A stretch of DNA of 35,617 nt from a virus, in IMG/VR virus record IMGVR_UViG_3300028025_002875, positions 1 to 35,617 of that record. The stretch is one strand, 5' to 3'. The position numbers and the translations under genes were made by a program. Positions 6,390 through 30,351 of this stretch are shown here, one piece after another. The notes under the pieces are model-generated. The model saw only the letters and a program-made list of their open reading frames with translations, was not told the DNA's origin and did not search any database. Numbering within the stretch: the first letter of the stretch is position 1; every line of letters starts with the position of its first letter.

Positions 6390-6390
6390 G

Positions 6391-9887: not shown

Positions 9888-9915
9888 ATAGGACAGCCTT
9901 GGCCAACCTAGGACT

Positions 9916-10725: not shown

Positions 10726-10730
10726 TTAAA

Positions 10731-11483
<753 letters not shown>

Positions 11484-11497
11484 TTACTGAATCTAGC

Positions 11498-11508
11498 TAT
11501 ATTTTACC
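11498..11508 (-). promoter_or_regulatory. GGTAAAATATA promoter-like element, copy B
   Basis: The minus strand reads GGTAAAATATA, 42 bp before the ATG at 11456. It shares a 20-bp identical block with copy A and lies in the 98-bp gap after the stop of the gene at 11555. Position and conservation support a promoter for the two-gene unit 11456-9916. Confidence 0.55.
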
Positions 11509-11554
11509 ATGATTAGCAATCAAGAGACGAGAGCGGCCTCACGGGGATTGTTAC

Positions 11555-11890: not shown

Positions 11891-11900
11891 ATTCACTTCC

Positions 11901-13235: not shown

Positions 13236-15271
13236 TTAGTACCCTAGATCGCCGATAAGCACGTATGTATTCGTAGCTACACACTTGACTGTTGCAGCTG
13301 AGTACAAGGTTGCAGTCTTTAGTCTTCCCTCTTTAGAGTTTAAAGTATTTCCAGCTCCCGCAGTGAACGTAATCTGAGCGGCATTTAACTGTAGGAAGTC
13401 CATCTGCTGACCAACAAGCAAGTTGCTTACTGTCACGGCTAGGGCTCCCGAGTTTGTCACGAGCTTACCTGCATCTGCCAAAAGAGTTGTGTAGGTTGTT
13501 GTTGGAGTAATTATTGTTTGAGTTGACGAGAACCCGCCATCCGCTCCGGTCGCGCCAGTAGCTCCAGTTGCACCTGTTGGGCCAGCTACTGTGCTGTCTG
13601 CACCAGTTGCGCCCGTTGCACCTGTAGCACCAGTTGCACCAGTTGCACCTGTTGCACCTGTTGGGCCAGCTACTGTGCTGTCTGCACCAGTTGCGCCCGT
13701 TGCACCTGTAGCACCAGTAGCTCCAGTCGGACCAGTAGGGCCAATATCTCCCTGAATACCGCCAGGGCCGTCAGAGCCTGTAGCGCCAGTCGCTCCTGTT
13801 GGACCAACAATCTGACCTGCATCATTCCAGTTTGTGCCATCCCAGACCCACAAATTACCGTCTGACTCAACGATGTAGGCATCGTTCACGGCCTGACCAG
13901 TAATTGCGTCAAGTGCGTTGTAGTCAGCAACCGATCCCGCGAAGTTGATTGATACACCCTGAGCACCAGTAGCACCTGTTGCGCCCGTAGGACCAGTCAC
14001 ACCAGTTGCACCAGTAGGTCCAATAGCACCTGTTACCTCAACCCAAAAGCCGTCGTAGTAAATATAAATTGCACCATCGTCGGTATTAAACCAAATGTCG
14101 CCAGCAACTGGGCTACTTGGAGGGGTAGATCCTAATTTATAGACACCGTCTGCTCCAGTTGGTCCAGTGGCTCCAGTTGGACCTGTTGGTCCTGGAACAG
14201 TTGAGTCAGCGCCTGTCGCTCCAGTCGCTCCTGTTGCACCTTCATTTCCTTGCTGACCTTGAATACCCTCGGGACCAGTTGGACCAATTTCACCTTGAAT
14301 ACCTTGCTCGCCCTGGATACCCTGGATACCCTGAATGCCTTGATCGCCTTGAATACCTTGCTCTCCCGTTGAGCCTGTCGCGCCAGTCGCTCCAGTTGCC
14401 CCCGTAGGACCAACGTCACCTTGAGCACCTTGTGATCCAGTTGCTCCAACTTCACCCTGAAGTCCAGTTGCACCCGTTGCTCCCTTAGGGATCCAAATCT
14501 CCCACTGCCCGTTGGTTAAATAGTCAATCGGGTCACCAAGCTGCCCGCTTGCCTTAGCAAGATAGAGCTGCCCGTCAGAGCCTCGCGCTACTGCAATATC
14601 AGGTTGATATCCAGAGTTTGGGTTATAGTTTCCTAAGTAGTAAATTCCAAATGAGTCACCCTGAGATCCAGTAGATCCAGTTGCACCAGTTGGACCAGTC
14701 TCTCCTGTAGTCCCTTGAACACCTTCAGCTGCAATCAGAGTCCAGAATGTTCCTTCTGCAGGAGTATCTCCAACGTTACCCCCATTAGAGTTAAGCCGAT
14801 ACCAGGTTTGGCCTTCGTATGTAGCCACATCGCCAGTAGCGTAGGCTGTCCCCCCGCCATAAGCTCCAGTAAAGTTCCACAAAGCATCTGCACCAGTAGC
14901 GCCGGTTGGGCCTGTTGCTCCAGTAGCTCCGGTCGCTCCTGTTGGACCAACAATCTGGCCTACGTTATCCCACGCAGAACCGTCCCAGACATATAGATCA
15001 CCGTCAGCATCGACAATATATGCATCATTAACTTCTTGTCCGGTTGATGGAAGACTTGCAACATTAGCTACTGTTCCGTGTAGAACAATTGAGGCACCCT
15101 GAGCACCTGTTGCACCAGTTGGACCAACTGATCCAGTTGCTCCCGTAGCGCCAGTTGGGCCAACTACGCCTGCACGAACAACGGTCCAAGTCTCTCCGTC
15201 CCACTTCCATTTAGTGGAGCCAACTACATACTCGTCATCTACTGATGGATTGTCTGGAAAATTAATAGCCA

Positions 15272-15272
<1 letters not shown>
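13236..15272 (-). CDS. large collagen-like fibre with chitin-binding-like inserts
   Basis: A 678-residue mosaic. The MAINFP head (residues 1-34, KWKWDGETW) is followed by many GXY blocks of GAT/GPT and GIQGEQG type. Between them are recurring small modules. Two are of the type [23 protein letters not shown]. One, about residues 140-192, is [19 protein letters not shown]...FWTLIA, like carbohydrate-binding module 5/12 (chitin-binding). One is [22 protein letters not shown]. The C-terminal 90 residues ([17 protein letters not shown]...[13 protein letters not shown]) resemble the knobs of the products at 7424 and 26456. The start overlaps the upstream stop as TAATG. Near position 13567-13718 the gene holds a perfect 68-bp direct repeat. 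It is best read as a long trimeric adhesin with sugar-binding beads. Confidence 0.87.
13567..13718. repeat. perfect 68-bp direct repeat inside a collagen-like gene
   Basis: Positions 13567-13634 and 13651-13718 read as identical, offset by 84 bp (28 codons), so a change of copy number keeps the frame and the GXY phase. It includes the GPTVA-type break (STVAGPTG). This looks like a recent unit duplication. Confidence 0.85.
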
Positions 15273-17163
<1,891 letters not shown>

Positions 17164-17164
<1 letters not shown>

Positions 17165-17526
17165 TATTTAGTTACCTCGGCTCTAACAGTTAGGTTACCT
17201 TGAATTATTTTTGTGACCGTTCCTGTTGATGTCTCTGTAAGTTCTAGATCGTGAACATATTTGCCAGGCTCTAAAGCTGCAGTCTGGGTGGGGCTGGCTA
17301 TAACTAACACGGTGCCAGCTAAAGCGTTAATCTCTAGGCCACCATTAGAAGTTGTCAGGGTTAATACAATGCTTGTGGAGTCTGTTTTCTCTCGAATATG
17401 CATTACTCCGGTATACCCAGTAAGCGTTACTGGTGCTTTAGCAGAGCTTTTAAGCCCGATTGAGCGCAAAAGGGTAGCGCCTTGATCGACAATAATGTCA
17501 TAAACGTTTGTGGTAGCGCAATACAC
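17164..17526 (-). CDS. baseplate/fibre-base beta-sandwich protein
   Basis: A 120-residue protein: [18 protein letters not shown], then G-x-x-x-x-M-x-I-R-E at about residues 40-46, and a C-terminal [31 protein letters not shown]. This order (QG-x-x-F/L, G-x-x-x-R-M-x-I-R, YDLEL...V-x-x-L-x-G-x-V-x-V) is a recurrent small structural protein of tailed phages, often before tail-fibre genes, with an N-terminal BppU-like fold. I recognise the pattern but not a named family. The start is GTG with AGGGA 5 nt upstream. It is the first gene of the long leftward fibre unit, 29 bp after a GGTAAAATATA element, and probably anchors the fibres encoded next. Confidence 0.75.
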
Positions 17527-17554
17527 GGGAGTCCCTAAATTATAGGCGGTCTCT

Positions 17555-17565
17555 TATATTTTACC
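17555..17565 (-). promoter_or_regulatory. GGTAAAATATA promoter-like element, copy C
   Basis: The minus strand reads GGTAAAATATA, 28-29 bp before the GTG at 17526, in the 64-bp gap separating the fibre unit from the oxygenase cluster. A second AT box, TATAAT, follows on the same strand (plus-strand 17538-17543). Either could be the -10 box of the promoter for the 17526-11555 unit. Confidence 0.5.
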
Positions 17566-17590
17566 CGATATAGGGCATAATGATTGTTTC

Positions 17591-18298
17591 TTAATAACTT
17601 GGCATATTGGTAGAAGGCTGATATCCTTCACGTTCGCCTACACCGTACCCGTCGGGGAGTAGGGCAATTTCTGCTTGGGTACGGTTACGCTTCCACCCGG
17701 TTCCGATGTGGTATTTCTCCCCCTGCCTGATTTCAGTCGAAGAGTGGTAAAAAGGTTTTACACAAGGGAATATGACTAAACTGCCAGGAACTGCCTTAAT
17801 GAGCAAGTCTTGCTCTGGAAACCAGAGGTCACCGCCAACCTTATTGTTATTTAGGTATATCAGTCCAGTGCAAATAGGGTCCACTACTCGGTCATAATCA
17901 TCGTCTACGTGCGGCCCCATCATCTCACCAGTTTTGTAGTGAAAAGACGCTATGTCGGTCATTAATTCCGTGCTTTGATGGTTAATCCCCAGTTGATCAA
18001 AGTAGTATTTACCAGCTTCGTCAAATATGGTTCTGACTTTTAAATAAAACTCACGAACCTCTTGATTTTTTGTATTTGATAGGTTATCGAAGGTGGACAT
18101 TCGCTTTGTACCGTAGACGTGTGGGGTAGCATCAGATGTCTGCCACGGTCCTAGTTTATGGAACACATCCTGATTCTCGGTCTCTAGAAGCTCGTCCATG
18201 TTTTTGTGCATATAAATTGCATACTCTGGATCGTCTAAAATACCTTCAAAATAGAAGATGCGCTCGGCGTAAACAGTTACTTTTGATGGGTCAATCAT
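17591..18298 (-). CDS. 2-oxoglutarate/Fe(II) oxygenase, divergent member
   Basis: A 235-residue double-stranded beta-helix oxygenase of the prolyl-4-hydroxylase type. Metal ligands are H130-V-D132 (GPHVDDDY) and H185 (FYHSS); K195 in GEKYHIGTGW would bind 2-oxoglutarate. The conserved strand after the HxD is IYLNNNKVGGDLWFP, a degenerate form of the YLNDDYEGGEL seen in the seven relatives. I start at ATG 18298, where GGGAGAG precedes it and the residues before it (in the longer open frame to 18520) overlap the neighbour and look non-native. It is the last of the array, 16 bp after the previous gene. The substrate is unknown; these enzymes hydroxylate proline, lysine, aspartate or small molecules, releasing succinate and CO2. 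Confidence 0.86.
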   Translation of the reverse strand: MIDPSKVTVYAERIFYFEGILDDPEYAIYMHKNMDELLETENQDVFHKLGPWQTSDATPHVYGTKRMSTFDNLSNTKNQEVREFYLKVRTIFDEAGKYYFDQLGINHQSTELMTDIASFHYKTGEMMGPHVDDDYDRVVDPICTGLIYLNNNKVGGDLWFPEQDLLIKAVPGSLVIFPCVKPFYHSSTEIRQGEKYHIGTGWKRNRTQAEIALLPDGYGVGEREGYQPSTNMPSY

Positions 18299-18314
18299 CG
18301 CTCTCCCAAGCTGC

Positions 18315-19004
18315 TTAAGCGTTTTTATTTCCAGCGGCCCACTGGCGCTTCTGCTCGTCTTGACGAGTGCGCTCGTAGGCAATCTCTTCTTCCATCTGCT
18401 GCAACTCTTCTTCGGTATACACCGAGTCAATGTAGTCCCAGAAGCCGACAATTGTAAATCTAGTTCCAGCCATGATTTCGTTGATGCGGTGAATATTTTC
18501 AATTCCGCCAGGGAAGGCAATCAAACTGCCCTGAGGAAGCTTTACGGTCAAATCGTAGTCACGAAACTCCAGCTCCCCACCCTCGTAGTCGTCATTCAAG
18601 TAGAGAACACTGGCAAATTTATTATTACGCCAAGCTGTTGGATTTCCTTCAATGTCAGAGCTGTCTGAGTGCCAACGTGCAAAAGCACCTACTGGCCACT
18701 TCTGAGCGTGCGCGCTGTTTAGTTTAACTCCACGGTTGTACGCAGCTTCGATAGCTGCCCGGATATGTTCTGGAAGCCAGCGAAAATAGTCCTTGTGTAG
18801 ATCTTCTAGACCAGAGCGATTTAAAGCGTCCTGCTCAATCATCAAAGCCATACCTAGGGAGTCATAAAAACAAGTCTGCATCCAGTGACCAGAATTTGTT
18901 CCTTGATCCTCAAAAAAGTCGATGATCTTATTGCACTCTTCTGGGCTAAGGAACCCTGGGTACGTGACAACGTCATCTTTAAGCCATACTGGTTCTGGAA
19001 ACAT
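18315..19004 (-). CDS. 2-oxoglutarate/Fe(II) oxygenase (type A, copy 2)
   Basis: A 229-residue prolyl-4-hydroxylase-like enzyme. H112-S-D114 (WHSDSSD), H172 (ENIHRI) and R182 (TRFTIVGFW) are the iron ligands and 2-oxoglutarate anchor. The strand YLNDDYEGGELEF follows the HxD. It is a close relative of the product of 19849-20580: both have NSAHAQKW/NTSHAQKW, HSD(S/N)SD...GNPTA and a charged helical tail ending AAGNKNA/KNGNKYA. The ATG has AGTAGG 6 nt upstream. The 39-bp gap before it holds a palindromic AGTATACT (19034-19041) and AT-rich sequence, so a secondary promoter is possible. Confidence 0.9.
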   Translation of the reverse strand: MFPEPVWLKDDVVTYPGFLSPEECNKIIDFFEDQGTNSGHWMQTCFYDSLGMALMIEQDALNRSGLEDLHKDYFRWLPEHIRAAIEAAYNRGVKLNSAHAQKWPVGAFARWHSDSSDIEGNPTAWRNNKFASVLYLNDDYEGGELEFRDYDLTVKLPQGSLIAFPGGIENIHRINEIMAGTRFTIVGFWDYIDSVYTEEELQQMEEEIAYERTRQDEQKRQWAAGNKNA

Positions 19005-19043
19005 CTTTAACCTACTTTACTCTCTAAACTATAAGTATACTAT

Positions 19044-19856
19044 CTAATCGTTGTATATGTCCGTTGACTGACTGTGCCTAAAGGCGCTTTCTCGCTTTTT
19101 TTCCATCTCGGCCCAGAGTTCTTCCCCGTATTGGGCCTGACCAGCCAGCCACTCGGGGGTTCCTTCAAATTCATAAACCCAAAAAGTTCTAATAAAGTAG
19201 CGATCCCCCGAGGTAATCTGCTTAACTCCATGAAAATATGGCTCTGTAGAAGGAAACACTACAACGTCGCCCGCGCGAGGCTTGTAATCAATTGCGTCAT
19301 AGCCGCCACTATCATTTGCTATCTTGAACGAAAGCTCCCCGCCCTCGTAATCATCATTGAGATACATGGTGCAAGTTAGGGCATACTTAAGGCCAGGGGC
19401 ATCTGCCTTCTCGCGCTGAAAGTCCGTGTGATAGTGCATTGAGTAACGGTCATCGTCTACTCCACCTAGGGCTACATACTTTGCAATAGATGGTTTTTGG
19501 TGGGACCAATTAGGCAGCTCTACGGGGTATTTGCTCATGTAGTCTTCGGTAATCCGATAAAACAGCTTATCTACGTAGATAGACAAGTCCACCCCTGGTT
19601 TGCCCGCTTGCTGAGTTGCAGTATTTTCTAGAAAAGCGTTCCACTCTTCTAGCGTTGGCTTTGTTTCAAATCTTACGTGATTTAGTCCTGGCAAACTTAC
19701 CATTTCGCCAAAGGTCCACCACGCCTCCCAGCTGGGTAGCAATTTAACTTTTTCTATAAAGCCGTACGGATCATCAAATATGCCTCGATACACGTGGATT
19801 CGAGGGTAGATTTCTTCAGGGTTTAATTCTGTCATATCGCTATTATACTCAGGCAT
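19044..19856 (-). CDS. 2-oxoglutarate/Fe(II) oxygenase (type B, copy 2)
   Basis: A 270-residue oxygenase with H143-T-D145 (MHYHTDFQ), H209 (YFHGV) and R219 (GDRYFIRTFW). YLNDDYEGGELSF follows the HxD. It is a close relative of 20573-21343, sharing the IYPRIHVYRG/LYPRVSVYSG start, WTFG, MHYHTDFQ(R/Q)EK and a long basic-acidic tail with GTPEW/GTEEW and WAEME. I chose ATG 19856, whose overlap with the preceding TGA (ATGCCTGA) mirrors the ATGCTTGA junction at 20573-20580; ATG 19835 is an alternative matching the relative's length. Substrate unknown. Confidence 0.88.
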   Translation of the reverse strand: MPEYNSDMTELNPEEIYPRIHVYRGIFDDPYGFIEKVKLLPSWEAWWTFGEMVSLPGLNHVRFETKPTLEEWNAFLENTATQQAGKPGVDLSIYVDKLFYRITEDYMSKYPVELPNWSHQKPSIAKYVALGGVDDDRYSMHYHTDFQREKADAPGLKYALTCTMYLNDDYEGGELSFKIANDSGGYDAIDYKPRAGDVVVFPSTEPYFHGVKQITSGDRYFIRTFWVYEFEGTPEWLAGQAQYGEELWAEMEKKRESAFRHSQSTDIYND

Positions 19857-20580
19857 ATTTGTTACCATTTTTCCACTCAACGCGCTGTTCAGCCTGAGAG
19901 TCCCTGACTTCCTTGAGTTCCCTGTCCCATTCGGAGAGGCGCTCCTCCGAGTATTTAATGTCGGCAAAGTCCCAGAAAGATAGAGTTGTGTGACGCTCGC
20001 CCGAGATAATTTCTTTTACACCGTGAATATTCTCGACTCCGCCTGGAAATATGTAACATGAGTACTTATTTGGCTTTATCTCTAGCTCTGGCTCGTGGTC
20101 TGGAAAATAGAGTTCCCCGCCCTCGTAATCATCATTTAGGTATAAAATTGCTACATACTTGTTAATCTCGAAAGCTGTTGGGTTCCCATCAAAGTCCGAG
20201 TTATCTGAGTGCGGGTATGCGAAAGCGCCTTCAGTCCACTTCTGAGCATGTGACGTATTGGGTTTTACTGCACGCTCAAATACTAGCTCTACTGCTTGTT
20301 TTGTTTTGTTGTTTATTTTACTAAAGATATCGCTAGGAAGTTTGAATTTTGCTAACTCGGTTGGATCTGGATTGAGACCCATTCCGTAGGATCCATAAAA
20401 AGCAATAAAATCCCAAGTTTCTGGCCCCCTCTCAAAATACTGAACTAGGTTCTTTGCTGTATCAGCGTCTACAAAATTAGGAATTTCTACTATTTTGTTG
20501 TGAGTTACTCCTATTTTTGACTGAGTGTTTACTTCGTCTTTATAGTAGATAAAAGTAGAGGTGTCTATCGAATCAAGCAT
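19849..20580 (-). CDS. 2-oxoglutarate/Fe(II) oxygenase (type A, copy 1)
   Basis: A 243-residue enzyme with H124-S-D126 (YPHSDNSD), H186 (NIHGV) and R196 (GERHTTLSFW), and YLNDDYEGGELYFP after the HxD. It pairs with 18315-19004. The N-terminal domain is helical (about 1-100), as in P4H-like enzymes that bind peptides. The charged C-terminal helix (EERLSEWDRELKEVRDSQ) is a type A hallmark. Its ATG overlaps the stop of 20573-21343 by 8 bp (ATGCTTGA), so the pair is translationally coupled. Confidence 0.9.
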   Translation of the reverse strand: MLDSIDTSTFIYYKDEVNTQSKIGVTHNKIVEIPNFVDADTAKNLVQYFERGPETWDFIAFYGSYGMGLNPDPTELAKFKLPSDIFSKINNKTKQAVELVFERAVKPNTSHAQKWTEGAFAYPHSDNSDFDGNPTAFEINKYVAILYLNDDYEGGELYFPDHEPELEIKPNKYSCYIFPGGVENIHGVKEIISGERHTTLSFWDFADIKYSEERLSEWDRELKEVRDSQAEQRVEWKNGNKYA

Positions 20581-21343
20581 TATTTTCTCTATTCATTAGG
20601 TTGTAGCGTCCAGTTTGACGCTCCAGTTTCTCTCGTTGGTGTTCCATTTCGGCCCATTTGTCTGGTCCGTACTTCTTTTGATTAGCGTGCCATTCTTCTG
20701 TACCAGGGAAATAGTAGTCCCAGAAAGAACGAACAAAGTATTTCTGACCTTTTGTAGTCAGTCGTACCCCGTGATAATAAGGCTGATCAGAAGGAAAAAC
20801 TAGTATATCTCCCGCTTTAGGTTTATACACAATTCCATCAAAAACACCGTCTTCTTTCAGTATTTTAAATTCAATCTCTCCGCCTTCATAGTCGTCATTT
20901 AGATACATGGTGCAAGTTATGTACGGCTTGAATCCCGGCTCTTCTCGTTTTTCTTGCTGAAAGTCCGTGTGGTAGTGCATTGCTATATCTTCAGAGGCTC
21001 CCCCGTTAGTGTCATACATACACACGGCTGGAGAGTTAAAATTCCAAGCTACAGGACTGATTTTATTGTTATCTACATAATGCTTGGTTGCTTCATAGAA
21101 TGATTTTAAAATTGCTTTGGACGCTGAGTTGGGATTCTCTACAGACTCCTCGATTTGAACCCACTCTTGGGGGGAGGGGAAGGAGTCGAAGGTTCTACGA
21201 TCTAGTTGAAGGACCGTTTGATTTCCAAAAGTGTACCAACCCTCCCAGGTGTAGTCAGCTCTAAGAGTTGAAATAATGCTTGCTGTGTCTCCTAGCAAGC
21301 CACTGTATACACTTACTCGAGGGTATAGCTGCTTAACTTCCAT
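20573..21343 (-). CDS. 2-oxoglutarate/Fe(II) oxygenase (type B, copy 1)
   Basis: A 256-residue oxygenase with H125-T-D127 (MHYHTDFQ), H191 (YYHGV) and K201 (GQKYFVRSFW); the relative at 19044 has Arg there. The strand YLNDDYEGGEIEF and the tail WHANQKKYGPDKWAEME are shared with it. I place the start at ATG 21343, overlapping the upstream stop by 11 bp; a TTG at 21355 with GGAC before it is possible. It forms, with 19849-20580, one unit of a duplicated two-gene block. Confidence 0.88.
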   Translation of the reverse strand: MEVKQLYPRVSVYSGLLGDTASIISTLRADYTWEGWYTFGNQTVLQLDRRTFDSFPSPQEWVQIEESVENPNSASKAILKSFYEATKHYVDNNKISPVAWNFNSPAVCMYDTNGGASEDIAMHYHTDFQQEKREEPGFKPYITCTMYLNDDYEGGEIEFKILKEDGVFDGIVYKPKAGDILVFPSDQPYYHGVRLTTKGQKYFVRSFWDYYFPGTEEWHANQKKYGPDKWAEMEHQREKLERQTGRYNLMNRENNA

Positions 21344-22007
21344 GATGCTTGACAATTGTCCAAAAGAACGGGCAAGTGTATCGAATACCAGACTCGATTT
21401 TGGTGACGCCGTGAATGTAGTTTAGATCTCCAGGGAAGAAATAAGCAGCTCCACGCTTTGGCTTAAACTGAATCCCCTGGTTAGGAAAGTACAACTCCCC
21501 GCCTTCGTAGTCGTCATTGATATAGAAAAGGCCCGCTAGGTCATAGTAAGGAAAGTCATTTGGCTTACCTTTATCGTCTCCAATGTGCAACTCCTTGTCA
21601 GCGTGAGGCTGTTGAAGCATCCCGGGTAACCAGCGGACCAGTGCTGGACTAGTCGGCATTGCGTCTACCTTAAAAAACTTGTCTACCTCGCCCTTAAGAC
21701 GCTCGACCATGCCCTCGATTATGCGAGGAATTTCAGGATTAACCTTGTCAATAGTTGAGTACGTAGCTACTCGGTCTTTCCAGTAATCAGAGTCATAAAT
21801 TACTGTACCTTCTTCGTTGTAGTGAGTCTCGGTAACATCCCACTCGGTGTTGCTTCTGATAAAGGTATCTAGTGCAACAATTTCTTCCTCAGTCATAAAG
21901 TTCTCAAGCGAGACAATATTGTCGGCAGAGTCTCCAAAATACCCTGAAGGGGTGATTGAAACTCTAGGCGCACCTCGGTGGCTGTTTGCTAGCTCTTGTT
22001 CAGTCAT
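21333..22007 (-). CDS. 2-oxoglutarate/Fe(II) oxygenase, singleton
   Basis: A 224-residue oxygenase. H135-A-D137 (PHADKEL), H199 (YIHGV) and R209 (GIRYTCPFFW) give the iron site and 2-oxoglutarate anchor; FYINDDYEGGELYFP follows the HxD. It lacks the charged C-terminal tail of types A and B and ends soon after the fold (TIVKHHGS), so it is the most compact member. AGGAT lies 7 nt before the ATG. It follows the two DUF6065-like genes after a 13-bp gap. Confidence 0.9.
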   Translation of the reverse strand: MTEQELANSHRGAPRVSITPSGYFGDSADNIVSLENFMTEEEIVALDTFIRSNTEWDVTETHYNEEGTVIYDSDYWKDRVATYSTIDKVNPEIPRIIEGMVERLKGEVDKFFKVDAMPTSPALVRWLPGMLQQPHADKELHIGDDKGKPNDFPYYDLAGLFYINDDYEGGELYFPNQGIQFKPKRGAAYFFPGDLNYIHGVTKIESGIRYTCPFFWTIVKHHGS

Positions 22008-22020
22008 ATTACTATCCTAC

Positions 22021-22770
22021 TTACTCATATACTCGGCGAGTCCACACTTCTTTTTGATAGACTCCGCCATTTGGTACTCGATATTTTTGAGCATTTTCCA
22101 TGTTGCTGTTGATCATTTGGTTGTGGGTGACATCGGTTTGCAGCTCCGATGTCCAGTTTTCTCTTTTAAAAGGAAGAATCTGAGCATACGGGGTTCCTGC
22201 TGGGATTATCCCGGTAAAACCTTTAACTATAAAGAAAGGCATTGTGCCAGGTAAGTGCACCTTATCGTTGTCAATGATTCCGCTAGTTGTTAGGAATGGC
22301 AGCTCAAATCGGTTAAACGGCTGAGAATAGAGCGCACTATATCCTTCAGGGAGAACAACGGCCCAATCGGCCCACCATGCAAAATGCTTTTCGTGGTAGC
22401 CCTGCGGAGGCACGAACTGAGGCATTGGCGCGCGATCTCCAACAAAATCTTTGTTGTATTGGTCTGCTACTTTAATTTGGATTTCTCCATTTTCTTCATA
22501 GACTTCTACGTCGCAAGGGGTTTTATAGACATATCCTGTTCCCATAATGTCGAATATTGCTGGACACGCTTTCCAAGTAGGAACCTTTCCGCCATCTTGC
22601 GGATTAATCCAAGGCTCATTTGTGTGAGGATTAACTGCAAATCGATCAGCCTTACGATACCACTCTGGAATAGTTTTAATTGTCGGGCTAGGCGCGGAGG
22701 CGCTGTTTTTGTTTAGCCAAGGACGATTGATTACAAACTTTATCTTATTTACTTTGCTCAACTGAGTCAT
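22021..22770 (-). CDS. DUF6065-like protein, copy 2
   Basis: A 249-residue protein with no known enzyme motif. It has the course INRPWL...IPEWYRKAD...TWKACPAIFDIM, then a central WWADWAVVLPEGYSALYSQPFNR and FTGIIPAGTPYAQILPFKRENW. The last phrase matches the IPAGTPVAALLPISL of its neighbour. From memory this is the DUF6065 type, common in phages and aquatic bacteria and found next to oxygenase genes; it reads as a beta-sandwich like a cupin. Some family members could supply or bind a substrate. Its start overlaps the previous gene's end by 26 bp. Function unknown. Confidence 0.72.
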   Translation of the reverse strand: MTQLSKVNKIKFVINRPWLNKNSASAPSPTIKTIPEWYRKADRFAVNPHTNEPWINPQDGGKVPTWKACPAIFDIMGTGYVYKTPCDVEVYEENGEIQIKVADQYNKDFVGDRAPMPQFVPPQGYHEKHFAWWADWAVVLPEGYSALYSQPFNRFELPFLTTSGIIDNDKVHLPGTMPFFIVKGFTGIIPAGTPYAQILPFKRENWTSELQTDVTHNQMINSNMENAQKYRVPNGGVYQKEVWTRRVYE

Positions 22771-23500
22771 CCTCTACTTCGTAGGTTTGACCAGTAAACG
22801 GGCATGTTACAGTCTTGAGCTTAATTGATTTAGTTTCGTGGGCTCCCACTTTTTCTCCTGTGTAATCTACGGCATCTCGATACATTTTAGACCAATCTCC
22901 TACAGCATTTTTCTCTTGAGCAGCGTCTCCATATTTTTTTAGTTCTTCCCAGTAGGTATTGTCTAAGATGTTTTCATCTATTTCCATAACAAAATCATTT
23001 TCTAATGATCCTAAAGAGATAGGTAGTAAAGCAGCCACTGGTGTCCCAGCGGGAATAGTGATTTCTTTATTTGCCTCGGTTAGCTTCCAAGCAACAGGAA
23101 GCGGTGGCATATAAAAAGACGTACTAATCAAAGTTGTAAAACACTGAGTACCAGCAATGAACTGGTTAGGCACAGGCATGGTGAGAAGCGTTATATCTGG
23201 GTCTGTTTTAAAAATAAGCCCTGTATCAAAACTTAGTGTTGCATTTCCGCGCTGTGGGTTTGCCCACTCTTGACCTTTTAAAACCTTAACGTGATCTGGA
23301 GTAGTGTCATCTACGCCGTCCCATATAAACACGATGTCTTCTGGGAACGAGATGCCCCAGCCGAGCCTATTTGTAAGGGTCAATGGAAAGCACATGTATG
23401 CATGCTTCTCGATTGAGCTATCCATCCAATCTCTAGCTGCTGGTAGTGGCTCTACTTTTGCTGTGTTTGGGGATCCTCGACGGACTTCAATTTTGCGCAT
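22745..23500 (-). CDS. DUF6065-like protein, copy 1
   Basis: A 251-residue relative of the previous entry. It carries CFPLTLTNRLGWGISFPEDIVFIWDG at about 36-62, NATLSFDTGLIF, and IPAGTPVAALLPISL near 160, then a helical acidic end (DNTYWEELKKYGDAAQEKN) and CPFTGQTYEVEDD. The two copies differ clearly, so the duplication is old. ATG overlaps the upstream stop as TAATG. No catalytic site is recognised; the CPFTG motif might be a metal or partner site. Confidence 0.72.
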   Translation of the reverse strand: MRKIEVRRGSPNTAKVEPLPAARDWMDSSIEKHAYMCFPLTLTNRLGWGISFPEDIVFIWDGVDDTTPDHVKVLKGQEWANPQRGNATLSFDTGLIFKTDPDITLLTMPVPNQFIAGTQCFTTLISTSFYMPPLPVAWKLTEANKEITIPAGTPVAALLPISLGSLENDFVMEIDENILDNTYWEELKKYGDAAQEKNAVGDWSKMYRDAVDYTGEKVGAHETKSIKLKTVTCPFTGQTYEVEDDSVEQSK

Positions 23501-24249
23501 TAGTTGCCCGTCTCTTCGTAAAATCCAGGCTTGTGGTATTTATCAGAGTAATCGAGCATAGTAACCATTGAATATTTAGTACCAGACTTCACTGGCATAG
23601 CACGGTGCGGATACATAAAGTTTGATGGGAATAGATACACGTCGCCTGCTTTAGGTTTGATTGTCACGTTGTGAAGCCTGAAGTAAAGTTCCCCACCCTC
23701 GTAGTCATCGTTAGGGAACGCAACTATTGAAACTACGCAGTTGTACGAGAACCCGTGATCGTGATGTTCTTGGAAGTGTTGCCCTGGGCCATACTTAATG
23801 TAGTTAGTTGCCTCCCAGTAACGTAGCTCCCCGATATTGTAGTGCTGCGTATAATGCTTAACGGCCTGAAGTTGTCTTGAATATGTATCATCCGCGAGCG
23901 ACTGAAGGGCTAGTCCGGCTTCACTTTGATCCTGAGTGATGTCGGTTTTTTTATATTTAAAATCAAAGCAGTCTCTATACTCTGGCATTTTCATCCCGTA
24001 GCCAACCATAGCCTCTGAATAGTTGTATGGATTCTTGTCATCGCTTAACACGCTTTCGAGGCGTTCTATGATATTTAAGCTTTTTGGCAGTACATCATGG
24101 TACACCCATATGCCAGTCCCAGGGGATACCTCCTCCGCTGAACTCCAAGGTTGTTCATCTAGGTGATACCACGCTTTGAGACGGGTGTTGTGGTCTTCCA
24201 TCTCTTTTTTCATGATTTCGTCTGGTTCGGTGACGTGTTCAGCTGTCAT
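23500..24249 (-). CDS. 2-oxoglutarate/Fe(II) oxygenase (type C, copy 2)
   Basis: A 249-residue oxygenase. H162-x-D164 (EHHDHG), H215 (YPHRA) and K225 (GTKYSMVTMLDY) are in order; PNDDYEGGELYF follows. Shares with 24262-25008 the segments NYIKYGPGQHF / NFVKYDGPGTHF, DHG(F/P)(S/T)Y and a Lys rather than Arg anchor. The N-terminal 100 residues contain WVYHDVLPKSLN. AGAGGAAG precedes the ATG. Substrate unknown. Confidence 0.9.
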   Translation of the reverse strand: MTAEHVTEPDEIMKKEMEDHNTRLKAWYHLDEQPWSSAEEVSPGTGIWVYHDVLPKSLNIIERLESVLSDDKNPYNYSEAMVGYGMKMPEYRDCFDFKYKKTDITQDQSEAGLALQSLADDTYSRQLQAVKHYTQHYNIGELRYWEATNYIKYGPGQHFQEHHDHGFSYNCVVSIVAFPNDDYEGGELYFRLHNVTIKPKAGDVYLFPSNFMYPHRAMPVKSGTKYSMVTMLDYSDKYHKPGFYEETGN

Positions 24250-24261
24250 TTCTTCCTCTTG

Positions 24262-25008
24262 TCAGTACTTAAGTTCGTAAGCTTGAATGGTCGGGGAAAC
24301 CCTGTGGTTTACACCATCTCGATCATTATAGTCTGTCATAACCACAACAGCATACTTAATACCGCTAATCATGTCCTGAGAGGCATGCTCGTAGATGTAT
24401 GTTGACGGGAATACAACAATGTCTCCGGCTTTAGGTTTAATAGTTAATTTATCAAATCTAGGGAAGTGTATCTCCCCCCCCTCGTAGTCATCATTTAAAT
24501 AGACACACACGGAGATTGTACATACATATGTTGGACCATGGTCAGCATGAACCTTAAAGTGTGTCCCAGGGCCGTCATATTTTACAAAATTAAATGACTC
24601 GTATGATGCTATGCCTACGCCCCACTGGCGTCCATAGTCGTCAACACATTGGCGGATTGCCTGAAAAATTCGCTCGTGCATGTCGTAAAGTTCGGAGTTT
24701 TCTTCGTCCCTAGCGCCAAGATTGTTCGAGCTAATTTTAAAATCTAAAGCATTGCGGGCATATAGAGCCACTTCATCCGAAGATGTTACGCGTGCGCCCT
24801 GCCATTCGTACCGAGTCTGTCCGTTCAATTTTGACTCTAAGACATCTATATAAGCCTTACCCTGCTGTTCGGTAATTGCTCCGCTGTATAGGTTAATCCC
24901 CAACGCTGGGTTTGACACCTTTATACTACCTAGCTGCCTATCGGCTAATCGATTACTAGATGTCTCTGATCTATCTTTTGTGAACCAATCATTTTCATTT
25001 TGATGCAT
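24262..25008 (-). CDS. 2-oxoglutarate/Fe(II) oxygenase (type C, copy 1)
   Basis: A 248-residue enzyme, first of the ten-gene array. H154-A-D156 (VHADHG), H208 (YEHAS) and K218 (GIKYAVVVMTDY) match the 2-oxoglutarate/iron pattern; VYLNDDYEGGEIHFP follows the HxD. I use ATG 25008, preceded by GAAGG; an upstream GTG at 25026 lacks a ribosome site. The 120-bp gap upstream holds the terminator of the Hint gene, a palindrome AGCTAA-T-TTAGCT (25039-25051) and AGTAAAAAAG, a loose match to the phage promoter element. Confidence 0.9.
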   Translation of the reverse strand: MHQNENDWFTKDRSETSSNRLADRQLGSIKVSNPALGINLYSGAITEQQGKAYIDVLESKLNGQTRYEWQGARVTSSDEVALYARNALDFKISSNNLGARDEENSELYDMHERIFQAIRQCVDDYGRQWGVGIASYESFNFVKYDGPGTHFKVHADHGPTYVCTISVCVYLNDDYEGGEIHFPRFDKLTIKPKAGDIVVFPSTYIYEHASQDMISGIKYAVVVMTDYNDRDGVNHRVSPTIQAYELKY

Positions 25009-25038
25009 TATGACCAAAACCTTCACTAGACAATTGTT

Positions 25039-25128: not shown

Positions 25129-26430
25129 CTACTTGTTGTGGACTAGATATCCTCCAGCTACGAACCAGTGGTACTCGTCGCATGAGAACTGGTATACGGT
25201 TGCAGGCTCTTCTAGAACTGTAATCTCTAGAATCTCTTCTTCGGTGTATGTTCCGTCTTCTAGCACGGATACAAGCTTGTCACCGATAGTTAGATTACCT
25301 ACCATGCGAACTTGGAAAGTGTCTCCTGATCGCACGAACACAGGTTGCTCGCTTGAGTACTTAGCCAAGTCATTACCGTTGAAGTAGGTAATGCCAGTCT
25401 TAACACTCTCTACGATATTGGTGATTGTGGTCTCAACCAATCCGCTTGAGGTTACTGTCAACGAGGTTCCAATCTCAAACTCTACTGGAGTGTTTTCCAT
25501 AGAGGCCAGCTCTCCAATAGCTACAGATAGGACAATGTCTCCTACTGAAAGATCTTTCGCTGCTACCAAACCACGAGGAGTGTTGATCAAAGTATTACCT
25601 TCGATACACCTTGGGCTGAAGTATGGCGGGAAGAACGGGAAGAACGGGAAGAACGGTGGGAAGAACGGGAAGAACGGTGGGAAATAAGGGAAGAACGGTG
25701 GGAAATAAGGGAAAAACGGTGGGAAGTAAGGTGGGAAGTAAGGTGGGAAGTAAGGTGGGAAGTAAGGTGGGAAGTAAGGAGGAGTAGTTACTGCTCCTGA
25801 GTACTCTGACCACTGAGAAGCTCCGTTAGCGTTAGAAACTCTTACTCTATAAGACTGAGTAGTGTTTCCTTCTTGAGACACAGAAAACTCGCCTGGCGAT
25901 TCTCGGAAGCCGCTTTTGCTGTCATTGCTTTCCCAGTAGTAGGGGTTGGATGCAAGGATGGCTAAACCGCCATTAGCTGAAGGAGCGGTAATAGTTACAA
26001 AGTCAGTCTGATTGTTGGTTTCAGATCTAACTGTTGGAGCACTAGGAGCAGCTGGTGTTGTAGTTACGGTTACTGACTCAGATGTTGTTGGGTTGGAGTC
26101 ACCTGAGTTGTTTTTGGCTACTACTGTAAAAGTGTATGCGGTGTTAGAAGCTAGACCTTCAAATATAAAAGGGCTACCAACGCTTGGCGCTGAGGTAGTG
26201 TTTTTTGTTACGGTTGTTGGGGTGCTAGTAATGTCATAGCTAGTAGCTGGAGGTGAATCATTTGGTAGAGTCCAGACCAGTGCCACAGCGCCGCCCTGGC
26301 CGTCAGTTCCTGTTGCTGAAAGCAGGTAAGGACGGTCGGTTCCTACGTTATTGGCACTGTTTATGGTTACAGGACTCGGCTGCAGAAAGTCATTCTGTTG
26401 GGCGGAGCGTCTACCGGTTCTTTTACTCAT
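25129..26430 (-). CDS. FN3-YFPP stalk-Hint (intein-like) virion protein
   Basis: A 433-residue protein in three parts. Residues about 18-126 and 128-217 are two fibronectin type III-like domains (NTAYTFTVVAKNNSG, TQSYRVRVSNANG). Residues about 217-273 are PPYF/PPFF repeats, an aromatic polyproline stalk. C275 to the end is a Hint domain: CIEGNTLINTPRGLVAAKDL and VGDIVLS, the second GDKLVS at 383, and the C-terminal YHWFVAGGYLVHN-K, ending in the canonical HN. The usual block-B histidine (TxxHP) is replaced here by Gln in SSEQPVF (359-365). Just one residue follows HN, so no C-extein remains and classical splicing is unlikely. Autocatalytic cleavage at C275 or attachment to a partner is possible. 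A terminator follows. Confidence 0.87.
   Translation of the reverse strand: MSKRTGRRSAQQNDFLQPSPVTINSANNVGTDRPYLLSATGTDGQGGAVALVWTLPNDSPPATSYDITSTPTTVTKNTTSAPSVGSPFIFEGLASNTAYTFTVVAKNNSGDSNPTTSESVTVTTTPAAPSAPTVRSETNNQTDFVTITAPSANGGLAILASNPYYWESNDSKSGFRESPGEFSVSQEGNTTQSYRVRVSNANGASQWSEYSGAVTTPPYFPPYFPPYFPPYFPPYFPPFFPYFPPFFPYFPPFFPFFPPFFPFFPFFPPYFSPRCIEGNTLINTPRGLVAAKDLSVGDIVLSVAIGELASMENTPVEFEIGTSLTVTSSGLVETTITNIVESVKTGITYFNGNDLAKYSSEQPVFVRSGDTFQVRMVGNLTIGDKLVSVLEDGTYTEEEILEITVLEEPATVYQFSCDEYHWFVAGGYLVHNK
25616..25781 (-). repeat. 12-bp/9-bp tandem repeats encoding the YFPP/FFP stalk
   Basis: Tandem units of ggtgggaagtaa and shorter ggaagaac(g) variants encode (Y/F)FPP and FFP on the minus strand. 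The right half is nearly pure 12-mer, the left half more decayed. The pure unit is identical to that in the gene at 9916-10725. Confidence 0.85.
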
Positions 26431-26455: not shown

Positions 26456-27313
26456 TTAAGCTGATAGGTCGCCGTATACTAGCCAAGTATTGGCAGCTAC
26501 CTTAGTAATCGTAGCAGATGAAAAAGTAGTACGGAACTTCAACCCGGGGGTTTTTTGTAGTGTTACGCCAGCTCCTTGGACAAACTCAGCGCCTGTCCCG
26601 CTGCTTTGGTAGAAGTCAATTGAGGTTCCTACTGGGAAGGTAATCGAGTTAGTTGTATCCGCGTCAATTGTGACAGTATAGGCACCTGCAATCGGGACTA
26701 GGGAGTCTCGGTAAGTAAGCGGATTGGTTAGCGTTGAGGTAGTTGCGTTTGCCGTAATTGCAGCTTTGATTGTGGTCAAAGATGGGACGCCCTGCTTAGT
26801 CTGCGTACCGTCCGCAAACTCGATTCCATCTGTATCTACGGTAACTACACCAGTGAATGTAGGCGCGTCTATAGGGGCAAGGCTGGTATCGCTCGGGTGA
26901 ACGTGGTCTGCACGAGCATATTTTAACGATGTGCCTGGTGCCGCGGTGCCATTACTTGCTGGATTTGCTGAAGACGCTTGTCCTACTACAAAAGCAGTTG
27001 TTGCAATCTGGGTATCATTCTGATCAGCAGATGCAGTGGGGGCTGTTGGCTCTCCTGTTAACGCTGGACTCGCTAGCGGGGCTTTATCCTCAAGCTGATC
27101 TTGGATAGATGAAGTAACTCCAGCCACGTAACCAATTTCGGTTGATGTGGTGGTTGCAGCTACTAAATATCCATCCACATCCGAGACGATGTCTCGGTTT
27201 GCAGTATATTGAGCACGGTTTGGTGTCCAGACCTCGCCCGACCATGTCCAGGTTCGGTTATTGTAGGTGTATTCCTCACCGACTGTAGGTTCTGCAGGAA
27301 AATTGATAGCCAT
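26456..27313 (-). CDS. tail-fibre protein with MAINFP head and beta knob
   Basis: A 285-residue protein. The head MAINFPAEPTVGEEYTYNN, then TWTWSGEVW, is the same module as in the three collagen-like fibres, but no GXY block follows. The middle (ELxYVAGVTSSIQDQL, DADHVHPSDTS, PTFTGVVTV, EFADGTQT) is typical of phage fibre shafts. The last 85 residues resemble the knobs of 7424 and 13236. I start at M8 (ATG 27313), which overlaps the upstream stop as TAATG and fits the shared head; the open frame continues 7 codons further to an ATG at 27334. It probably uses the same virion socket. Confidence 0.83.
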   Translation of the reverse strand: MAINFPAEPTVGEEYTYNNRTWTWSGEVWTPNRAQYTANRDIVSDVDGYLVAATTTSTEIGYVAGVTSSIQDQLEDKAPLASPALTGEPTAPTASADQNDTQIATTAFVVGQASSANPASNGTAAPGTSLKYARADHVHPSDTSLAPIDAPTFTGVVTVDTDGIEFADGTQTKQGVPSLTTIKAAITANATTSTLTNPLTYRDSLVPIAGAYTVTIDADTTNSITFPVGTSIDFYQSSGTGAEFVQGAGVTLQKTPGLKFRTTFSSATITKVAANTWLVYGDLSA

Positions 27314-30300
27314 TATGCCTGTGCCTCTGTCCATGCTAGACGACCGCTGAATGACGCGGTTGATGACGATAGGTTAGTTACAACGATGGTTAGGGTGTCT
27401 GGACCGTCTGGGTAGATTCCAGAGTTAGAGGTTGTACCTCCACCACCAAGAACACAGTTTCCAAGGTCACGAAGGCGGCTCAACTCAATCGAGTCAGTGC
27501 CTTGAGACAAGAAACCACCTGTGATTTCACCGCCAGATACAGTCACGTTACCGTTTGAGCGGTAGTCTGCAATCTGAGCTAGAGACGAGTTCGCCGTTCC
27601 GGTCTCAGAGAAGTTTGGGGTATTCCAACTAACTGAAGCCGAAGGGACCGCATTCAAATAAGCACGCACTAGGTAGTTCGTACTTGCTGATGTTGTAGTC
27701 ACACCTAAGCTGTTCATCTTCAATTGCATACGGTTGATAATCTCACGCTGACCAAAGTTAGCGCTAATACCGTTATCTACAGATGGAGCTAGACGAATCG
27801 AGAACAGCGCTTTTGAAGCGTTAGCTGGAATCGAAACAGTTCCGGTCTGACCGTAGGTAAAGATAAGAGACGCGTCATCGTCGAAACGGCCATCCATGAT
27901 TACCGAGGTACCCCAGTGGGAGATAGACGGTGCAAATGAAGGGTACGCCAACTCCACTGAAGTAGGAGCTGTATCTACGTGAGTGTATGTTTGAGCAGTT
28001 GCACCCATTGGTGCAAAGATCAAAGTTGGGTTAGATGAAGTGATTGCGGTATTTAGGGTGATTACAGTACCAGCAATGTCTGTAATAAACGCACCGTCTG
28101 GAGCTGGGCTAGGCGATGTGCTTGAGAATACTCGCTGACCAACCTGAAGACCGGTTGCACTTGACACAATTCCTGAGTTGGAACCAGATGTCCAGGTAGT
28201 AGAAACACCAGTTGCACCAGCGCCACCTCGGGTCAGGCCAGTAAAGGTAGTTGCTGTCTTGCCGGTGTAGTTGACATACTCGTGTAGCAAGTCAGCCTGA
28301 TTATCTACGGTACTAGGGCGAATAACAAGAGTTCCTGATGAAGGGAACGCAGAAGTATCAAGCACTGTCATTGTGGTGTCAGTGTCTGACAAGCTTGCAT
28401 CTACACGAGTGGTTGGTGGCAATGTAGAAGACTCGTAGCGAGCTGGAAGGTTTCCAGAGCGCATGTACGCTTCATTGTTGACGTTGTTGTTCTTCATCTT
28501 GTGAACGTAGAACACGTTACCGTCTTCACCGCGGAGTCCCCAGCGGATAAAGCCAGCACCGTACCAAGAGTAGTCAATGTAGAACATCTGCATCTTGGTC
28601 AAATCAACGGTGTAGCCTGAAGGCCCAGTTCCGTCGCACTTGTCTAGGTTGAACTCCGACTGAGGAACACGGACATCAATAGTTTTTGAAATACTCACGT
28701 GAGACGCGCTAGCAGCACGATAAGAAGGTGAGATTGTGAAGTTAGGGGTGGCTGAGATATCATCGACTGCGATTACTCGGTATGACTGTCCGCGGATTAC
28801 TACATAGTCACCAGGAATTAGCTGACTAGAGTATGCGGTCGGGAACGAAGCACTAGTGCGAGTAACTACGTTAGAGCCATTGGTCACAGTTGAACGTCCA
28901 GAAAGCTGCTGAGTAGATGAGCGCTTTACAGCATATAGACCTTGACCATCAAACTCCCAGAACACGCCGTTCTGAGCGTCAAACTGACCTAGTCGGTTAG
29001 CTGATCCGTACCAAGAGTTTACGTTTAGGTTTACGATACCCGTAGCTGGTCCAGCAGCAGATGTTTCCATCTCGTATGTAAACGTATTGAAACCAGTAAT
29101 CTCAGCTACGCTAAATGTTCCATTGTAAGGGGCTTCGTTTGCGCCTGCAACTAGGATAGATGTGCCTGGTTGAATGTTGTGCTGTTCCTTGGTGGTAACA
29201 GTAGCAGTGGTTCCAGACGAGGTAATGCCATCGATGGTTGCATATGGCTTAAAGATGGTTCCAGATGAAATCTGAAGGCCCTTACCAGACTGATAACGGA
29301 AGTAACGACGAGTCTGACGAATTGCAGCCTCATAGTTTGAGCTTGCGTTAGCAGAGAACAAAACACCACCGTCAAATGCACGGTGCAAGAACTGAGCTTG
29401 CGGACGTACATAAACAGATGCATTTGTTGCAGTCAAGCTAGAAGGAGTACCTTCAGTTGGATCAGCGTAGTATACAAAAGTGGTTGGGGTAGAAACTGTT
29501 GCCACGCGGTATGAGCCATTTGGTGGGTTGGTTCCAGTGATACCAGTGATAGCAATTGTGTTACCGATTGATAGACCGTGAGGGACTGTAGTAGTTACAG
29601 TAACCTTTAGGTCTGAACCTGAAACGCTAATCGTAGGTGCCGCACCAATTTTTGCGTTTGTGTATAGGTTAGCAACATAAATTGCGGTTTTGTTTGGGTC
29701 AAGAATATCGGTAACAGTTGTTTTGTTCTGGGCACGACCTAGGTAGGTAAATGTTCCAGTACCACCACCCGACTCAATCAGGAAGTTGCCATTTGCTGCT
29801 GCAAGGAATGTGTCCTGCACGTTTACTGCAGTTCCGGTTGCAGGTGCAACACCAGCAATTGCCTGACCTGATGACCAAGTTTCGGTTCCTGTTGTTGAGT
29901 TAGCAACTGCAAAGGTTGTGCTGGTTGGAGTCGAGTAGATCAAGTATGTGCCGTTGTAGCCAGAAACTGACGAGCCAGAGATGGTTACGTATTGCCCAGT
30001 CGAGAAACCGTGAGCTGATGAGGTTGTGTACTGAACGTATCCAGACACTGGAGTAGATGGGGTGGCTTCTGTAACCGTTGCTGTGGTTGTAGAAAGAGTC
30101 ACGGTAACTACGCGCGCGTTTGTAGACATGCTGATTGCAGAAACGTTAGGAATTGCAGTTGCTGAAGGCGCTGCAAAAGGGCGGTTGTTAGTTACGGCTA
30201 GGTTCTCCCACTTCGACTGCTGAGTACCGTATTCGAAGTCGGTATCAATCAGCGCCTGGGCGGTTGAGGTGCGTAGTTTATTTACCGGATCGGTAAGAAC

Positions 30301-30351
30301 TTCTGTTGGGTTAAAACGGCCATCTGATGCCGGAAACTGTTGAATACTCAT
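27313..30351 (-). CDS. large baseplate/tail structural protein
   Basis: A 1012-residue beta-rich protein. The N-terminus (PVNKLRTSTAQALIDTDFEYGTQQSKWE, about 23-49) is a signature I know from structural proteins of T4-like aquatic phages. Three repeats of about 45 residues share HGxSxGxxVxIxG...NGxYxV...TTFxY (near 112-152, 262-305 and 392-432). A long middle with beta and linker segments precedes the conserved end: REIINRMQLKMNSLGV (about 875-890), then GGFLSQGTDSIELSRLRDLGNCVLGGGG. No enzyme motif is seen. It probably sits in or near the baseplate; ATG overlaps the stop of the 30351-30665 gene. Confidence 0.85.
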   Translation of the reverse strand: MSIQQFPASDGRFNPTEVLTDPVNKLRTSTAQALIDTDFEYGTQQSKWENLAVTNNRPFAAPSATAIPNVSAISMSTNARVVTVTLSTTTATVTEATPSTPVSGYVQYTTSSAHGFSTGQYVTISGSSVSGYNGTYLIYSTPTSTTFAVANSTTGTETWSSGQAIAGVAPATGTAVNVQDTFLAAANGNFLIESGGGTGTFTYLGRAQNKTTVTDILDPNKTAIYVANLYTNAKIGAAPTISVSGSDLKVTVTTTVPHGLSIGNTIAITGITGTNPPNGSYRVATVSTPTTFVYYADPTEGTPSSLTATNASVYVRPQAQFLHRAFDGGVLFSANASSNYEAAIRQTRRYFRYQSGKGLQISSGTIFKPYATIDGITSSGTTATVTTKEQHNIQPGTSILVAGANEAPYNGTFSVAEITGFNTFTYEMETSAAGPATGIVNLNVNSWYGSANRLGQFDAQNGVFWEFDGQGLYAVKRSSTQQLSGRSTVTNGSNVVTRTSASFPTAYSSQLIPGDYVVIRGQSYRVIAVDDISATPNFTISPSYRAASASHVSISKTIDVRVPQSEFNLDKCDGTGPSGYTVDLTKMQMFYIDYSWYGAGFIRWGLRGEDGNVFYVHKMKNNNVNNEAYMRSGNLPARYESSTLPPTTRVDASLSDTDTTMTVLDTSAFPSSGTLVIRPSTVDNQADLLHEYVNYTGKTATTFTGLTRGGAGATGVSTTWTSGSNSGIVSSATGLQVGQRVFSSTSPSPAPDGAFITDIAGTVITLNTAITSSNPTLIFAPMGATAQTYTHVDTAPTSVELAYPSFAPSISHWGTSVIMDGRFDDDASLIFTYGQTGTVSIPANASKALFSIRLAPSVDNGISANFGQREIINRMQLKMNSLGVTTTSASTNYLVRAYLNAVPSASVSWNTPNFSETGTANSSLAQIADYRSNGNVTVSGGEITGGFLSQGTDSIELSRLRDLGNCVLGGGGTTSNSGIYPDGPDTLTIVVTNLSSSTASFSGRLAWTEAQA

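Follow-up and report, generated by a model that had tools for sequence, protein, structure and literature searches.

An array of eight 2-oxoglutarate/Fe(II) oxygenase genes in an uncultured phage is linked to a proline-rich repeat gene

Organization of the Oxygenase Array

The virus record IMGVR_UViG_3300028025_002875, analyzed here over its full 35,617 nucleotides (the window), contains eight genes for 2-oxoglutarate (2OG)/Fe(II) oxygenases, O1 to O8, in one block on the minus strand. Transcription runs from a gene that joins an FN3 domain, a polyproline repeat and a Hint-like domain (the PPFF-repeat, or FFP, gene) through O8, O7, D2, D1 and O6 to O1, and then into a small gene and collagen-like fibre genes. 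The block comprises the following genes, with E values for PF13640 unless another family is named:

25129–26430, minus strand: FFP gene, first of the block; FN3 domain, 57-residue PPYF/PPFF/PYF repeat and Hint-like C-terminal domain; proposed substrate
24262–25026, minus strand: O8, 2OG-Fe(II) oxygenase, core class (E 3.3e-11; orthologue in 32/32 contigs)
23500–24249, minus strand: O7, 2OG-Fe(II) oxygenase, core class, modelled prolyl-hydroxylase fold (E 3.1e-13; AlphaFold2 model; orthologue in 32/32 contigs)
22745–23500, minus strand: D2/E, DUF6065 protein homologous to D1 (PF19541, 102.5 bits)
22021–22770, minus strand: D1, phrog_7084 protein, modelled dUTPase-like fold without intact dUTPase motifs (phrog_7084, E 1.8e-34)
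21333–22007, minus strand: O6, 2OG-Fe(II) oxygenase, core class (E 2.4e-6; orthologue in 32/32 contigs, clade support 0.62)
20573–21355, minus strand: O5, 2OG-Fe(II) oxygenase, O3 paralogue (E 5e-10; 42% identity to O3)
19849–20580, minus strand: O4, 2OG-Fe(II) oxygenase, O2 paralogue (E 2.6e-8; 42% identity to O2)
19044–19868, minus strand: O3, 2OG-Fe(II) oxygenase (E 1e-12)
18315–19004, minus strand: O2, 2OG-Fe(II) oxygenase (E 2e-9; orthologue in 26/32 contigs by tree)
17591–18298, minus strand: O1, 2OG-Fe(II) oxygenase, the most divergent (E 2.3e-6)
17164–17526, minus strand: small gene with a weaker match to a tail-fibre-assembly family

All eight oxygenases pass the curated cut-off of PF13640 (2OG-FeII_Oxy_3), at 28.9–50.9 bits against a cut-off of 27, and phrog_61 is the best PHROG match for each. 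The HxD motif and the distal His are present throughout (HVD/H in O1, HSD/H in O2 and O4, HTD/H in O3 and O5, HAD/H in O6 and O8, HHD/H in O7), and a Lys or Arg lies 10 residues past the distal His in every one. An exact NDDYEGGE is found in O2 to O8, with NNNKVGGD in its place in O1; the longer YLNDDYEGGE is exact in O2, O3, O4, O5 and O8. O1 starts at ATG 18298, not at 18520, O3 at 19868 or 19856, and O8 at GTG 25026 or ATG 25008.

An earlier note, made from the sequence alone, had described eight 2OG/Fe(II) oxygenases that all keep HxD...H and an Arg/Lys, with NDDYEGGE in seven and the longer strand in most, and these descriptions agree with our counts. So does its placing of the array between collagen-like genes (7424–17164) on one side and the FN3-polyproline-Hint-like gene (25129–26430) on the other. 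The genes are not consecutive, as it had them, since D1 and D2, neither of which is an oxygenase, interrupt the run between O6 and O7. Its count of eight distinct enzymes stands as a count of genes, but these include three paralogue pairs (O2/O4, 42% identity; O3/O5, 42%; O7/O8, 33%) that, on their alignment, show local duplication. Because O2/O4 and O3/O5 are equally similar, the order O2-O3-O4-O5 reads as a putative A-B-A-B duplication of one gene pair. About 16 kb from the array, a glycosyltransferase gene (phrog_13126, 189–1286) encodes a possible partner for glycosylating hydroxylated residues.

The Array Is Widespread and Conserved

Loci were collected by means of related proteins and then searched with profiles, giving a non-redundant set of 141 including the window, mostly from IMG/VR. 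Runs of at least four oxygenases occur in 118 of these loci and runs of at least eight in 33, with a maximum of 12. The density in the window exceeds chance, because PF13640 is present in only 3/50 random IMG/VR contigs and never in more than one copy. Where the earlier note took one or a few such enzymes per phage as the norm, multiple copies prove not to be rare (3 to 13 PF13640 matches in five cultured phages); the compact, repeat-linked array is what is new.

Of the 118 arrays, 114 include a gene for DUF6065 (E) or phrog_7084 (D), and 112 have one of each. Their layout is ED in 72 arrays and DE in 33, the rest having an extra copy or a single kind. Array order is highly conserved, reading FFP gene, O, O, E, D, O, O, O and so on, with a variant FFP, O, D, O, E, O and so on. 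In relative G004 (1–20000), a second, smaller oxygenase cluster near 8.6–14.8 kb has neither D/E nor FFP genes.

In a tree of 277 oxygenases from 32 selected contigs, O7 and O8 each form a one-per-contig clade spanning all 32 contigs, and O6 a nearly one-per-contig clade of 34 members that also spans all 32, with a support of only 0.62. The O2 clade spans 26 contigs, O1 is found in 8, and O3, O4 and O5 in 5 each. A fixed oxygenase core next to D/E is thus joined by other members that vary between arrays. Orthologues in four close relatives keep the same order, and all ten genes have nonsynonymous rates (Ka) of 0.04–0.34 with synonymous rates (Ks) of at least 1.35, mostly saturated, which supports the view that the oxygenase genes are intact and under purifying selection. 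The low Ka and the retention of O6, O7, O8 and, in most contigs, O2 also support maintenance of several different oxygenase activities, as had been suggested from the window, without naming which ones.

A Two-Way Link between the Array and a Proline-Rich Repeat Gene

The FFP gene of the window encodes a repeat with 26 Pro, 22 Phe and 8 Tyr in 57 residues, preceded by an FN3 domain (fn3, 31.1 bits; cut-off 25). Hint and intein models match the remainder of the protein, which ends in VHNK, below their cut-offs (Intein_splicing 21.4 bits, cut-off 35.8; PT-HINT 20.2 bits, cut-off 27.7). Proline, in PP and single-P steps, makes up about 46% of the repeat, and nearly every proline follows a Phe; over the loci, the units between prolines mostly end in Phe (FF 1290, YF 218, HF 48, SF 36). 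The C terminus varies, being a Hint-like domain, a short acidic tail or a Cys-rich tail, and 38 of 113 FFP proteins extend more than 80 residues past the repeat.

Of the 78 arrays with at least 2.5 kb of upstream sequence, 74 are preceded on their own strand by an FFP gene no more than 3.5 kb away, compared with a background of 117 FFP genes among 4195 open reading frames in array loci. A stricter regular expression finds FFP upstream in 50/74, and most of the remaining cases were read by eye, revealing variants such as PPSFFA, PPHF and CPAF repeats. The 141 loci were partly selected by array proteins, and a second, independent selection was therefore added, in which 50 whole contigs were picked solely because their DNA could encode three PP-[aromatic]-F units. 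PF13640 is present in 43 of these 50 (median 6, up to 11 copies; at least 4 copies in 30), as opposed to 3 of 50 control contigs picked by an unrelated 14-mer, with one copy each (Fisher p ∼5e-17, a value that overstates independence because the records share ancestry). Of the seven PPFF contigs lacking PF13640, several are truncated at the repeat or close to it.

The link between the oxygenase array and the proline-rich repeat protein is genuine and strong, and it holds in both directions. The earlier note had placed the array beside such a gene, and had suggested searching other phages for arrays of at least four oxygenases beside GXY or YFPP proteins; 118 of 141 loci carry arrays of this size, and the FFP gene lies by 74 of 78. 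Because of the strength of the link in both directions, a virion or co-encoded protein is the likeliest oxygenase target.

Outside these loci, the FFP protein has no match in 50,697 records of cultured phages, in a search whose low-complexity filter masked the repeat and left the FN3 and Hint-like parts searchable. PPFF repeats occur in 11 stretches among 84,980 cellular genomes; 4 of them are accompanied by array genes (O, D or E), on contigs that were binned into bacterial metagenome-assembled genomes (Verrucomicrobiales, Gammaproteobacteria, Chitinophagaceae) and are probably of phage origin.

Active Sites and Predicted Fold of the Oxygenases

The catalytic residues are retained across the relatives. 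The distal His is present in 802/805 aligned positions and Lys/Arg in 804/804, and HxD, His and Lys/Arg occur together in 726/739 relatives when the motifs are sought relative to the GG and distal-His anchors (62 of 801 sequences, lacking an anchor motif, were left out; HxD appears in 248/739 when the upstream sequence is shuffled). This search replaced a fixed-column count of the triad, 227/452, an artefact of gaps in the alignment around HxD.

Among solved structures, the nearest sequence-profile matches of the array are Bacillus anthracis prolyl 4-hydroxylase (P4H; E 5e-11), P3H1, PiuC, LH3, PBCV-1 P4H and PHD2. The AlphaFold2 model of O7 (pLDDT 89) has a predicted P4H-type double-stranded β-helix, that is, a prolyl-hydroxylase fold. 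Its best VIA match is Trichoplax PHD (Z 19.6, 198 residues, 3.4 Å, 14% identity); other matches are an algal P4H with bound (Ser-Pro)5 (Z 18.9, 177 residues, 2.6 Å), Pseudomonas putida P4H (Z 18.6) and PBCV-1 P4H (Z 16.8).

The best Foldseek match of the O7 model is the P. putida enzyme in complex with EF-Tu. This match speaks for a reading in which the array enzymes hydroxylate host proteins, for example EF-Tu or those of the ribosome, and so seize control of translation. That explanation accounts neither for the 4–12 enzymes per array nor for the two-way link to FFP, and we consider it quite improbable. Members of PF13640 have a broad substrate range, and with the glycosyltransferase gene in the window and the position of the block in the fibre region, the enzymes could instead modify glycans or lipids of the host surface or virion, or a small molecule, with FFP merely a neighbour in a host-interaction module. 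This too is unlikely, given that the modelled O7 fold and the sequence neighbours belong mostly to peptidyl-prolyl hydroxylases and that the FFP link holds both ways.

D1 and D2 Form a Homologous Pair Related to dUTPases

The D1 model (pLDDT 85.8) has a predicted dUTPase-like fold: the Foldseek and VIA matches listed are all dUTPases or dCTP deaminases, the best with Z 9.5 over 126 residues at 3.1 Å. In a profile comparison of the D1 family with nine dUTPases (E. coli, seven phages and relative G004), the alignment is confined to the surroundings of motifs 3 and 4 (GIIDND, GTPYAQ; E 5e-4). Motifs 1, 2 and 5 were not found in D1 by local profile alignment, and there is no Pfam dUTPase match; a working dUTPase was rejected on the missing motifs. 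The D and E families are homologous (profile comparison E 7.5e-9), and oxygenase controls do not align with them.

Relative G004 encodes a separate, canonical dUTPase. Haloviruses carry a distant D1 (phrog_7084) homologue, which in the Haloarcula virus HCTV-8 record lies near tail-fibre and adhesin genes, with no oxygenase annotated in the 10 kb around it in this one record. Because of the missing motifs, the separate dUTPase of G004 and the fibre-proximal halovirus homologue, a structural or binding role near fibres would fit D1 and D2 better than nucleotide metabolism. DUF6065 and phrog_7084, both families of unknown function, are now placed in a process and, on the D1 model, in a fold superfamily.

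The D1 fold also bears on a reading in which the enzymes act on nucleic acids, in the manner of TET/JBP or AlkB, or draw down 2-oxoglutarate, as the authors of a cyanophage study proposed in suggesting DNA repair and 2OG modulation (PMC3037559). O6 is the sole oxygenase of the window to match Tet_JBP (PF12851), and its 17.4 bits fall below the cut-off of 34.9, on which ground we rejected DNA modification. With most dUTPase motifs missing from D1, a canonical enzyme present besides in G004, and the array linked to a fibre-region gene for a repeat protein, we give this reading very little probability.

Collagen-like Fibres

Genes next to the array in the window and in several relatives encode collagen-like (Gly-X-Y) tail fibres. 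The enzymes might then mainly hydroxylate these fibres and stabilize their triple helices as in animal collagen, a reading in line with the collagen hydroxylases P3H1 and LH3 among their sequence relatives. Collagen prolyl 4-hydroxylases act on the Y position. Pro occupies Y in 1 of the 342 triplets of the window, and in 47 of 4571 over all loci; Y is mostly Thr or Gln. A collagen-like gene lies within 5 kb downstream in 10 of the 44 arrays with enough flank, compared with an upstream FFP gene by 74 of 78. Hydroxylation of the collagen type at Y is therefore not supported by the triplet counts. The X-position Pro residues (71/342) could still be targets. With Y-position Pro nearly absent and the linkage weak, we rejected collagen as the main substrate; the fibres are improbable as the main partner that had been envisaged for the array.

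One further gene of the repeat type lies inside the collagen-like fibre module:

9916–10725, minus strand: second FFP protein, with a PPFF/PPYF repeat and, after it, a PASTA-like domain (PASTA 20.3 bits; cut-off 23.2)

This protein is a possible second substrate. Similar proteins are found downstream of the array in several relatives.

Host and Phage Lineage

The primase/helicase of the window (3380–6004) is ∼50% identical, over 96–98%, to primases of large Microbacterium phages, and 59% identical over two thirds to that of the lake Actinomycetia phage DSL-LC01. WhiB, an actinobacterial marker (PMC6802176), is encoded by 12/12 large relatives, by three of the primase-sharing phages and by 8/20 PPFF-selected contigs; its presence is established for the lineage rather than for the window, which is a fragment. 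Because of WhiB and the Microbacterium-phage-like primase, the hosts of these uncultured phages are probably aquatic Actinobacteria. With WhiB in only 8 of the 20 PPFF-selected contigs, the oxygenase-FFP system may extend beyond actinophages. A cyanophage origin was rejected, as psbA is absent from 19 relatives and WhiB and the primase point to Actinobacteria. A virion structural protein (27313–30351) is 40–45% identical to cyanomyovirus proteins while the other markers are actinobacterial, a possible sign that fibre-region genes have been exchanged.

Both PF13640 and PPFF repeats are missing from DSL-LC01 and two Microbacterium phages, although all three share the primase family and WhiB. This joint absence counts in favor of the link between repeat and array.

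A Model for Hydroxylation of the Repeat Protein

Considered together, the two-way linkage, the shared absence, the modelled O7 fold, the catalytic residues, the signs of selection and the proline-rich repeat lead us to favor, at somewhat better than even odds, a model in which the array enzymes hydroxylate the co-encoded PPFF-repeat protein, much as animals hydroxylate collagen and plants their cell-wall proteins. Proline-rich repeats of the FFP kind are substrates that P4H-type enzymes accept. The first gene would supply a protein that is anchored by FN3 and carries a long (P)P-x-F repeat, in which x is mostly Phe or Tyr. The 4 to 12 array enzymes, as diverged kin of peptidyl-prolyl hydroxylases, would hydroxylate this repeat with Fe(II), O2 and 2-oxoglutarate. 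The site would most likely be proline, with neighboring aromatic residues possible too, and different enzymes may take different repeat positions or the products of earlier enzymes. D1 and D2 would also take part, most likely not as dUTPases but as scaffolds or binding proteins. Where present, the Hint-like domain may cleave itself off, and the finished repeat protein would probably be located on the virion or the host envelope and serve attachment.

A more specific form, which we put forward only tentatively, makes the array an assembly line in which one position of the (P)P-x-F repeat after another is decorated, giving hydroxyproline and perhaps hydroxylated Phe/Tyr, to yield a glue- or extensin-like adhesin, with Hint-like release and a dUTPase-fold scaffold. 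Were it so, and we hold this equally loosely, it could be the first case of a prokaryotic virus with several enzymes dedicated to hydroxylating protein.

Several points weigh against hydroxylation of the repeat protein. The proposal draws on gene content and order, conservation, active-site residues, the two-way association and predicted folds, and the prolyl-hydroxylase fold was modelled for one enzyme, O7. At least two PPFF contigs without PF13640 (G043 and G047) continue past the repeat, which can therefore occur enzyme-free. Oxygenase number correlates neither with repeat length (rho −0.08, p 0.58) nor with unit diversity (rho −0.22, p 0.11). Shared ancestry of the contigs means that gene order could partly be inherited and that the counts are not independent events. 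Finally, chloroviruses encode an active P4H, yet hydroxyproline has been sought in their virions without success (PMC7019647).

2OG oxygenases are common in aquatic phages and their substrates unknown; the two-way linkage names a specific candidate substrate and therefore makes the question directly testable. If the model is correct, bacterial viruses would have a dedicated protein-hydroxylation pathway, which would provide many prolyl hydroxylases that are selective for sequence. The modified phage surface protein would also be of a new kind, and the phages concerned probably those of aquatic Actinobacteria.

Comparison with Known Systems

Plant and algal P4Hs act on proline-rich repeat proteins at the cell surface, in plants the extensins. 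Chlamydomonas P4H-1 shares the P4H fold with the O7 model (Z 18.9), but the phage repeat is (P)P-x-F rather than Ser-Pro/Ser-Hyp, and the phage genes are clustered. The B. anthracis P4H, closest by sequence profile (E 5e-11), is in contrast a lone bacterial gene, and we know of no PPFF partner for it. D1 resembles the dUTPase/dCTP deaminase superfamily in the model matches listed (best Z 9.5) and at motifs 3 and 4, and differs from it in that motifs 1, 2 and 5 were not found and in the pairing of D1 and D2 inside an oxygenase array.

Among viruses, PBCV-1 encodes a P4H-fold enzyme, matched by the O7 model at Z 16.8, that hydroxylates proline-containing peptides sequence-specifically (PMC7019647). 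It is a single enzyme of a eukaryotic algal virus, with an unknown role in replication, whereas here 4–12 enzymes share one block with a repeat protein. Viral use of prolyl 4-hydroxylase "remains cryptic" (PMC9301287), and a recent survey found some marine phage enzymes that resemble human EGLN3 (PMC12774648). Cyanophage 2OG-Fe(II) oxygenases, for which DNA repair and 2OG signalling have been suggested (PMC3037559), have phrog_61 and PF13640 in common with the array. The cyanophages S-RSM4, P-SSM2, S-H9-1 and S-SCSM1 have 9, 9, 7 and 13 PF13640 matches and the methylophage Melnitz-3 has 3, with no PPFF repeats in any of the five; unlike the array genes, those of the cyanophages are mostly dispersed, in clusters of ∼3–5 at most in the regions seen. 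Literature searches, which covered open-licence papers, turned up no description of PPFF-repeat phage proteins with hydroxylase arrays. What is new relative to these systems is a compact array bound to a PPFF-repeat gene and a DUF6065/phrog_7084 pair, and this array is far more widespread than the window in which it was noticed.

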